Assembly (NCBI RefSeq): GCF_001592755.1
Contig: NZ_LUKF01000014.1
Location: forward strand, 186,841-250,840
Direction of reading: 5' to 3'
DNA: 64,000 nucleotides
Source of the DNA: Bdellovibrio bacteriovorus
Lineage (GTDB): Bacteria; Bdellovibrionota; Bdellovibrionia; Bdellovibrionales; Bdellovibrionaceae
Shown in pieces: positions 60,818 to 64,000 of the stretch. Positions within the stretch are counted from its first letter, which is position 1; the number at the start of each line of letters is the position of its first letter. The notes under the pieces are model-generated. The model was given only the letters and a program-made list of their open reading frames with translations. It was not told the origin of the DNA and ran no database searches. The position numbers and the translations under genes are program-made.

Positions 60818-63379
60818 ATGAAAAAGCTTTATCTCATCGACGTCAGTGCCATGTTTTTCCGCGCGTTCTTCGCGATTCGCCAACTGACGTCGCCATCAGG
60901 TGTTCCTGTTAACGCCGTGTATGGATTTTTATCCATGCTCATCAAACTTCTAAAAGAAGAAAAGCCTGAATACTTAGTTTTCTGTTACGACCGTAAAGAG
61001 CCTTCTTTCCGTAAAGATATGTATGCTGACTACAAAGCACACCGTACGGAAATGCCCGACGATCTTCAAAAACAAGTCCCCTACATCAAAAAGTTCGCGG
61101 AGCTTTTGGGAATTCCAGCATTCGATATGCAAGGTTATGAAGCCGATGACATCATTGGTTCGTTGGTAAAATGGGGTCGTCATCACAATATGGAAGTTTT
61201 CATTGTCAGCGGCGATAAAGACTTCGGACAGTTGGTGCAAGAGCACGTGTGGCTTTACGACACCATGAAAGACGTTCGTTACGACGCTAAGGGTGTTTTT
61301 GAAAAGTGGGGAGTCAGCCCCGCACAATTCATTGATTACCTCGCGATCGTGGGCGATGCCTCAGATAACGTGCCTGGTGTAAAGGGTGTCGGTGAAAAAG
61401 GCGCAATCAAACTTCTAGAGCAGTTTAAAACTTTAGAGGGTATTTACGAAAATATCGACAAGGTCGAAAGCAAAAGCGTGCGCGAAAAACTTTTAGCTTC
61501 TAAAGACAATGCGTTTTTATCGAAAAAACTAGTCACTATTTCCACAGACTGCAAAGTTCCCGAAGACTACAACGCTTATAAACTTCAGCCTTTTAAATCA
61601 GACGAATTAAAAGCCCTTTTGCAAGAGCTGAACTTTAAGACGTTCGAAAAGAATTTGTTCGGTTCAACTACCGAAGTGCCCTCTTCTACGCCTAAAGTAT
61701 CTGTTCCGAGCGAAGCTGTGGCGGAAGGCGAGATCCAACCAACATTAGTTATCACAAAAGATGATAAGCATTTCCAAGAGCGCACCGTAACGACACGCGA
61801 CTTGGCTGAAATGCTCGCTGAAAATCAGACCCTCTGGGGATTTAGTGACACCCGCGGAGTTTTCATTGGCACAGACTCTGAGGTTTTAGAGGTTTCTGAC
61901 TTTGAATATCTCGGAAAGCTTTCTGATACTTTCAGAATTCGCTGGAGTGGCTTCGATCTAAAAGCCTTCTGGTACAAAATCGGAGCCAAATCTCCTATCG
62001 CCGCTTGGGATTCCCAATTGGCGGCCTATGTGCTTAAAGCGGGCGACACTTCTGATTTCAATAAGATCTACACTCGCTACATGCTAGAGAATATTCCGGA
62101 ACTGGTTTCACCATCGGCTTTGTACAATGCTCATCGCAACTTTGCGGCGACTTTGCAACACGAGCTAAAAAAACTGGCTAGTGAAAAAGTTTATCAGGAG
62201 TTGGAGCTTCCCTTAGTGCGCGTTCTTCTTTCAATGGAAAGATGGGGCGTGCGTATCGATAAAGACCTTTTAGCAAAGCAAAGTGCCGAGCTAGAAAGCG
62301 AAATCGCGACATTAGAGCAAGGCATCTTCAAAGAAGCCGGCGAAACCTTCAATGTCGGAAGTCCTAAGCAATTAGGAGTGGTCCTTTTTGAAAAAATGGG
62401 ATTGCCAGCCGCGAAGAAAACAAAGACAGGTTATTCCACAGACGAAGAGGTTCTTTCTGGTTTGGATCACCCGATTGCGAAGCTCATTTTGCAATGGCGT
62501 GAACTTTCTAAGTTGAAATCGACTTATGTAGATGCACTTCCAACAATGATTGATGCTAAAGATGATCGCGTGCATACAAGCTTTAACCAAGCTTTGACGA
62601 CAACCGGTCGTCTTTCCAGCACGCAACCGAACTTACAGAATATTCCGATCAAAACAGCTCGCGGCCAGCAAGTGCGTAAGGCCTTTGTGGCAGCTCCAAG
62701 AATGAAACTGCTGTCCGTAGACTATTCTCAGATCGAACTAAGAATTCTAGCGCATATTTCGGAAGATCCGAATTTATGTAAAGCCTTTGCAGAAGACTTA
62801 GATATCCATGCAGCAACCGCCGCAGAAATTTTCAACGTGTCTTTAGATCAAGTCACTTCAGACTTAAGAAGATCGGCAAAAGCCGTCAACTTCGGTATCG
62901 CCTACGGCCAAGGAGCGTTCGGTTTGGCTGAAAACTTGGGCATCTCAAGAACTGAAGCTAAAGATATTATCGAACGTTACTTTACAAGATTTAAAAACGT
63001 TCGCGAGTACATCGAAGGCACGGTGAAGAAAGCCCATGAACAAGGTTACGTAGAAACTTTGTTCGGTCGTCGCCGTTACATCGAAGAGTTGAAATCAAAA
63101 AACATGGCTCTGAAAAAATTCGGAGAGCGCGCCGCCATCAACGCTCCAATCCAAGGAACAGCAAGCGATCTAGTGAAAAAAGCCATGATCGAAGTCTTCG
63201 AAAAAGTCCCCGTCAGAATGCTACTGCAAGTGCACGATGAATTGATTTTCGAAGCAACGGAAGAAGACCTACAAAAGTATTCTCCAGAGCTAGTGAAGAT
63301 TATGGAAAATGTGGCGCAACTCAAAGTCCCACTAAAAGTGAATTATGCGATAGGAAACAACTGGGACGAAGCCCACTGA
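60818..63379 (+). CDS. polA: DNA polymerase I, with degenerate 3'-5' exonuclease domain
   Basis: The 853-aa protein has the 5'-nuclease domain (1-~290: YLIDVSAMFFRAFFA, YEADDIIGSL, VSGDKDFGQL), a middle region of exonuclease size (~310-470), and the polymerase domain (~480-853) with motif A SVDYSQIELRILA (~635), motif B RRSAKAVNFGIAYGQG and motif C VHDELIFE (~806). The middle region lacks the DxE exonuclease motif: the expected place reads GFSDTRGVFIG, so proofreading is probably lost. A hairpin hides the ribosome site. Repeat copy C starts 4 bases after the stop. Confidence 0.93.
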   Translation: MKKLYLIDVSAMFFRAFFAIRQLTSPSGVPVNAVYGFLSMLIKLLKEEKPEYLVFCYDRKEPSFRKDMYADYKAHRTEMPDDLQKQVPYIKKFAELLGIPAFDMQGYEADDIIGSLVKWGRHHNMEVFIVSGDKDFGQLVQEHVWLYDTMKDVRYDAKGVFEKWGVSPAQFIDYLAIVGDASDNVPGVKGVGEKGAIKLLEQFKTLEGIYENIDKVESKSVREKLLASKDNAFLSKKLVTISTDCKVPEDYNAYKLQPFKSDELKALLQELNFKTFEKNLFGSTTEVPSSTPKVSVPSEAVAEGEIQPTLVITKDDKHFQERTVTTRDLAEMLAENQTLWGFSDTRGVFIGTDSEVLEVSDFEYLGKLSDTFRIRWSGFDLKAFWYKIGAKSPIAAWDSQLAAYVLKAGDTSDFNKIYTRYMLENIPELVSPSALYNAHRNFAATLQHELKKLASEKVYQELELPLVRVLLSMERWGVRIDKDLLAKQSAELESEIATLEQGIFKEAGETFNVGSPKQLGVVLFEKMGLPAAKKTKTGYSTDEEVLSGLDHPIAKLILQWRELSKLKSTYVDALPTMIDAKDDRVHTSFNQALTTTGRLSSTQPNLQNIPIKTARGQQVRKAFVAAPRMKLLSVDYSQIELRILAHISEDPNLCKAFAEDLDIHAATAAEIFNVSLDQVTSDLRRSAKAVNFGIAYGQGAFGLAENLGISRTEAKDIIERYFTRFKNVREYIEGTVKKAHEQGYVETLFGRRRYIEELKSKNMALKKFGERAAINAPIQGTASDLVKKAMIEVFEKVPVRMLLQVHDELIFEATEEDLQKYSPELVKIMENVAQLKVPLKVNYAIGNNWDEAH

Positions 63380-63382
63380 CCC

Positions 63383-63507
63383 GCGCTGATGAAAAAGGCC
63401 CATCTGACTTCGTTGGAGGGCCTTTTCCTTCACTCCGACGTGCCTCCAGCACGCCTCCGTTTCGGAAAAAACCCTCCGCCTCGCAGCTGAACCTTTTTGA
63501 TCAGCGC
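63383..63507. repeat. covarying interspersed repeat, copy C
   Basis: A 125-bp copy: outer arms GCGCTGAT / ATCAGCGC, conserved G-G mismatch, AAAAAGG / CCTTTTT. Its central hairpin is CGTGC-ctcca-GCACG instead of CGTACT / AGTACG. Left half AAAAGGCCC / GGGCCTTTT also forms a terminator-like hairpin for polA. Confidence 0.88.
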
Positions 63508-63654
63508 TAGTGTTCGGTGGGGTGAAGTTAGTAGACGGTGGGGCGTGAAATTGGTTTTGATCAAAGTCAGATTTTTCTTTTTAAGAGGAGCATCGCGCAC
63601 GCTCAGCTAGCGCGGCAGCCGGCCACCGCGACTGGCGTGGAGACGAGAGACTTG

Positions 63655-63799
63655 TTCCTTGGTAAGGGCTTTTAGCTAAGCTTCCCTGCAGCGAGTTCCG
63701 CAGCGAAGCAAGAAACACCAGCGGTAGCCAAGAAGAAAAGAAAAGAGCGAGGACTGTCCGAGCGAAAGGGAAGCTTAGCTAAAAGCCCTTACCAAGGAA
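63655..63799. repeat. 145-bp element with perfect 32-bp terminal inverted repeats
   Basis: The left arm (63655-63686) and right arm (63768-63799) are perfect reverse complements of 32 bases, beginning TTCCTTGGTAAGGGC. They enclose an 81-base loop with its own repeats (GCAGCGA twice, GAGCGA twice, GGAC/GTCC). About 60 bases upstream are GC-rich and hairpin-prone (CGCT-cagct-AGCG; GCCA...TGGC). It may be a structured RNA gene or a MITE; no target-site duplication is obvious and no open frame fits. Confidence 0.7.
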
Positions 63800-63804
63800 G
63801 CAAT

Positions 63805-64000
63805 CTACTCCGTCTCCCACCCAACAACGCGACCGCCTTCGAAGTAGACGAATCGTGTTTCCTGTCTAAACCCCGAAGAAGTAGAGACATGTCTTTGATA
63901 TTTCCAGCGTTCATTTTTATAAATCGGATTTCCTGAAACTTCGACGGCTAGGGGTTCGCCCCAGGAGCGGCGTACGTATTCTTGGGGCATTCCGACGGCG
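63805..64000 (-). CDS. C-terminal part of an unknown protein, gene runs off the right edge
   Basis: The last ~64 residues are visible on the minus strand; the frame continues upstream beyond base 64000, so the Met at 63990 need not be the start. The sequence GMPQEYVRRSWGEP, then NERWKYQR and FVYFEGGRVVGWE, resembles the end of small BamE/SmpA-like domains of exported lipoproteins. This is a weak pattern match. Only the C-terminus can be seen. Confidence 0.45.
   Translation of the reverse strand, partial: AVGMPQEYVRRSWGEPLAVEVSGNPIYKNERWKYQRHVSTSSGFRQETRFVYFEGGRVVGWETE

Follow-up and report, generated by a model that had tools for sequence, protein, structure and literature searches.

The inverted repeat studied here apparently belongs to an interspersed family of hairpins at gene ends which, judging from sequence comparison, combine a conserved tip with arms that are free in sequence. 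Our favored reading, to which we give a probability of about 0.55, is that of a gene-end hairpin with a self-folding core, the arms of which would be kept by template switching during replication. The stretch of DNA analyzed (64 kb, hereafter the window) contains the following features.

60818..63379, plus strand: polA, convergent neighbour (ORF; name from the preliminary description)
63655..63687, to 63648 with mismatches, plus strand: arm 1, gene-distal (perfect over 33 bp)
63691..63704, plus strand: core motif 1, GCGAGTTCCGCAGC (from the sequence; recurs in the extracted copies)
63705..63746, plus strand: variable loop part, T-rich on the minus strand (from the sequence and the extracted copies)
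63747..63763, plus strand: core motif 2, GCGAGGACTGTCCGAGC (9 copies in the genome; 23 of 24 genomes of the genus)
63767..63799, to 63806 with mismatches, plus strand: arm 2, gene-proximal (perfect over 33 bp)
63805..63999, minus strand: 3' end of the gene preceding the hairpin, about 212 aa overall and continuing beyond the window (ORF calls)

The perfect inverted repeat reported in the preliminary description is real, its dimensions being 33 bp without a mismatch around a loop of 79 nt (63655-63687 and 63767-63799) rather than 32 bp and 81 nt; with mismatches allowed, the arms reach 40 nt at 93% (63648-63687 and 63767-63806). The whole 64-kb window has no other perfect inverted repeat of more than 14 bp within 300 nt, the chance expectation of one of 33 bp is negligible, and the element folds far below shuffled sequences on both strands (z of -7.2 and -7.6). 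As had been claimed, no coding frame fits: the ORF listing of the window has none of at least 60 aa across the hairpin, and the stop codon of the ~212-aa minus-strand gene lies about 5 nt from the hairpin arm. The internal direct repeats ascribed to the loop could not be recovered, as there are none of at least 12 nt in the hairpin region and only a GCGAG word is shared by conserved motifs 1 and 2. The preceding stretch at 63583-63643, described earlier together with the repeat, lies outside the arms and is no part of the hairpin repeat family. Neither a promoter-like site nor a T-run directly after the stem was found at the window copy. Between polA and the hairpin lies a separate repeat, CTCCGACGTGCCTCC ... 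GCGCTAGTG (about 63433-63505), which was correctly noted before as "repeat copy C" and is dispersed over 8 places in the genome.

The genome search proposed in the preliminary description yielded many further copies and proved the element to be multicopy. Other places match the window element mainly in the part inside the arms, and the arms themselves have only chance-level matches at other genomic sites. Motif 2 is found 9 times in the window's Bdellovibrio genome (at most 2 mismatches), and 23 of the 24 Bdellovibrio genomes carry it, a reversed-motif control giving 0 or 1 match per genome. In the rest of the phylum nearly all motif matches fall within the same order, with two single matches as exceptions, and 7 further genera of the order carry copies, with arms of up to 90 bp. 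The 127 copies extracted from Bdellovibrio and one neighbouring genus, by a procedure that demanded arms, have a median arm of 34 bp with 6.7% mismatches. Most of the 15 motif matches left out by the extraction, some of them in other genera, nevertheless have arms, three being chance-like and two degenerate; outside the genus, 8 of 28 matches are without arms detectable by script, some of these being chance matches and one lying at a contig end. Nearly every genuine copy in the genus is flanked by long, almost perfect inverted arms, and their sequence varies from locus to locus. In G244 (L301 and L308) the arms measure 87-90 bp with 4-6 mismatches and, in contrast to Bdellovibrio, an outer arm sequence (GGTGCCTGACACTTATTC) is common to the copies. 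In the G018 assembly, stretches of N fall precisely within two hairpins (L245 and L267), which may reflect assembly failure and an undercount of copies.

No match over the element was found in Rfam 15 at gathering or relaxed thresholds, in agreement with the earlier view of it as undescribed, and a literature search that missed most subscription journals found no published description of such Bdellovibrio repeats or palindromes. As far as the literature and Rfam could be searched, the family thus appears to be undescribed. At one locus (L012), some 280 nt upstream of the element, many species have about 280 nt of conserved sequence that contains no long ORF; this stretch has no Rfam match and could represent a stable RNA gene missed by annotation.

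The arms of a copy pair with each other at 0.92, compared with 0.40 when arms are swapped between loci and a random-pair arm identity of 0.28. At orthologous sites (flanks more than 85% identical) arm identity ranges from 0.05 to 1.00 and every copy is still paired, while core identity is 0.47 to 0.97 and mostly above 0.65. The window locus carries the element in G000, G018 and G008, and also in G017 with different arms; most other species have no such element after the window's gene, polA often being close by. After the same gene, G012 has an inverted repeat with another loop sequence, which may represent a third type of core (L192, minus strand, from about 1920).

In the 44 pairs of orthologues that could be aligned, double changes, which hit both partners of a pair position, number 175 and one-sided changes 66; the counts are not independent, since the orthologue pairs are related. 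The window element differs from its G008 counterpart by 10 double changes and no one-sided ones. Stepwise compensation in an RNA passes through G-U and favours transitions. The transversion share of the double changes (0.55) equals that of core and flank substitutions (0.56), and the double changes are clustered (64 adjacent vs. 36.8 expected), which argues for templated copying of DNA rather than stepwise RNA compensation. A hairpin maintained by template switching would be expected to show just this pattern of double changes, concerted and clustered and with a substitution spectrum like the neutral one. A 3-nt insertion at L169 is present in both arms, and in G001 an orthologous site (L272) carries an almost perfect hairpin that lacks a core, the expected product of a fold-back switch. 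Plus-strand G-U mismatches are more numerous than those of the mirror class (55 to 21, or 28 to 7 with one copy per locus), and G-U accounts for less than 2% of the pairs in the arms, whichever strand is read. The sense strand was rejected as the folded strand on these mismatch counts, which favour the plus strand. Copying alone does not predict the plus-strand excess, and it is therefore likely that selection or repair also acts on a folded plus strand.

By crude ORF calls, 86 of 124 copies follow a co-oriented upstream gene, with the arm beginning a median of 9.5 nt past the gene end; other copies lie between divergent genes. In 25 locus groups a gene ends on the side of arm 2, as against 6 with a gene end on the opposite side. 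About ten copies begin where a tRNA gene ends, mostly tRNA-Leu, and their far arm copies that 3' end. Together, the copied tRNA ends and the preference for the arm-2 side suggest that constraint probably rests on the gene-side arm, of which the far arm would be the copy.

In the minimal copies (L123, L129, L228 and L230) the two motifs are a few bases apart, and in most of the predicted folds of minimal cores GTTCC pairs with GGAC around a short inner stem, although predicted core fold energies are not exceptional compared to shuffles. Long copies have a loop that is T-rich in the sense direction, and terminator shapes occur on the sense strand in 38 of 101 long loops and on the antisense strand in none. 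The outer hairpin was also considered as an intrinsic terminator and rejected, as a U-tract directly after the stem is not typical: the first 8 nt past the hairpin contain 2.4 T on average, and 22 of 127 copies have a T5 run within 30 nt.

From these patterns we infer the following model of template switching between the arms. The core, with its two motifs around a variable loop, would fold on itself and act as a nucleus bringing both flanks together; template switching in replication would then copy the flank beside the gene to the far side again and again. In this way the arms would become, and stay, near-perfect inverted repeats with no fixed sequence and a fast turnover. The hairpin might serve the gene end through 3'-end protection or termination, long loops often having the sense-strand terminator shape.

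A functional RNA is a possible but rather doubtful alternative to template switching. Such an RNA would be transcribed from the plus strand, antisense to the preceding gene, or would form the 3' end of an mRNA, with a stem selected for pairing and a core that binds protein by means of possible plus-strand G-A pairs and an A-rich loop. The very strong covariation, the plus-strand G-U excess, the conservation of the core over an order of bacteria and the one-sided terminator shapes are all as expected for an RNA, and the structured RNA proposed in the preliminary description keeps some plausibility on account of its strongly conserved pairing. The clustered double changes with their neutral transversion share speak for DNA copying instead, G-U pairs are rare, and neither a promoter-like site nor an Rfam family was found. 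A far arm that copies a tRNA 3' end would also be hard to explain by selection for RNA pairing. We take G005 to be the genome of HD100. On that assumption, none of 8 published HD100 attack-phase sRNAs (PMC3627812) coincides with a listed G005 copy.

In several Bdellovibrio genomes, perfect arms that are locus-specific enclose a second, unrelated apical core, GCTTCGAGCGGCACGCATCC ... GAAGGCCGCTCTTCG (L320, L324 and L321). It has 9 matches in the window's genome and matches in 15 of the 24 genomes, several of them with perfect or nearly perfect locus-specific arms. The 3' end of one gene, whose product ends like sigma-54, bears the first core in G005, G023 and G011 and the second in G000 and G018. 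The cores could themselves be propagating DNA elements that join a gene end, prime fold-back synthesis and carry an inverted copy of the host site as their arms, unrelated cores having converged on this habit and replacing each other at the same gene ends; we consider this unlikely.

Movement by a transposase that recognises structured ends (MITE, REP/RAYT or related) appears improbable. It would account for the scattered presence and absence among close species and for the occupation of the same gene end by two different cores, and Y1 transposase genes were found in 21 of the 24 genomes. Nevertheless, the listed Y1 genes are not beside listed copies, G012, G016 and G007 contain copies but lack a Y1 match, and no autonomous version was seen among the loci read, where motifs far apart were sought. 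The MITE suggested in the preliminary description did not hold, as the arms are locus-specific and not common to copies, and the arms are not flanked by an excess of 3-9 nt direct repeats, the mark of target-site duplication, relative to shuffled partners. In a first comparison, only L252 and L260 looked element-free, more such sites being seen in a later one, and simple insertion with one arm already present was demonstrated at none of the empty sites. RAYT-size Y1 transposase genes are common in Bdellovibrio, with up to 12 per genome.

A recombination site folded as single-stranded DNA, like the attC of integrons, is very hard to credit: the position just after genes, the structure kept without arm sequence and the mismatches pointing to one folded strand would suit it, but GTTRRRY / RYYYAAC end boxes are overall no commoner than in shuffles (7 of 127 copies vs. 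7.6; both ends 2 vs. 0.1), the conserved part is the tip and not the ends, and no cassette arrays were noticed.

Compensatory changes are usually taken as proof that an RNA is functional. At more than 100 natural sites, the stems of these hairpins keep their pairing even as they diverge or are exchanged entirely, and the spectrum of changes fits DNA copying. The family may thus serve as a test bed, in cultivable predators, of how long hairpins arise and persist, and as a warning that covariation alone is insufficient for inferring RNA function.

Several known systems share features with the family. The bottom strands of integron attC sites are likewise found at gene ends, with structure instead of sequence conservation and a single folded strand (PMC2727003); the Bdellovibrio hairpins lack the conserved end boxes and conserve the tip. 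A MITE is similarly a dispersed non-coding unit with inverted ends, but the ends of the present family are not conserved and target-site duplication is absent. REP/REPIN sequences (PMC3733652) are short intergenic palindromes that occur in many copies, often touching gene ends; however, REPs have family-conserved stems of 20-40 bp and a GTAG or CGTC tag, whereas the Bdellovibrio hairpins, with locus-specific arms of 34 bp in the median, have free stems and a conserved tip, and assignment to REP/REPIN was rejected. Long perfect inverted arms are also known from the mitochondrial palindromes of Nematomorpha, which lie inside the coding genes of an animal organelle, a conserved core going unmentioned in the abstract (PMC6649704). 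The closest process is quasipalindrome template switching, in which reverse-complement copying makes or mends perfect stems and leaves multi-base double changes, so that creation and repair of hairpins by this route are already known (PMC8794818; PMC7202029). It has been described at individual sites and in RNA genes, whereas the Bdellovibrio family is dispersed, with a conserved tip and locus-specific arms. What seems unusual, and new as a variant among interspersed palindromic repeats, is a dispersed family that joins a fixed tip to free arms.
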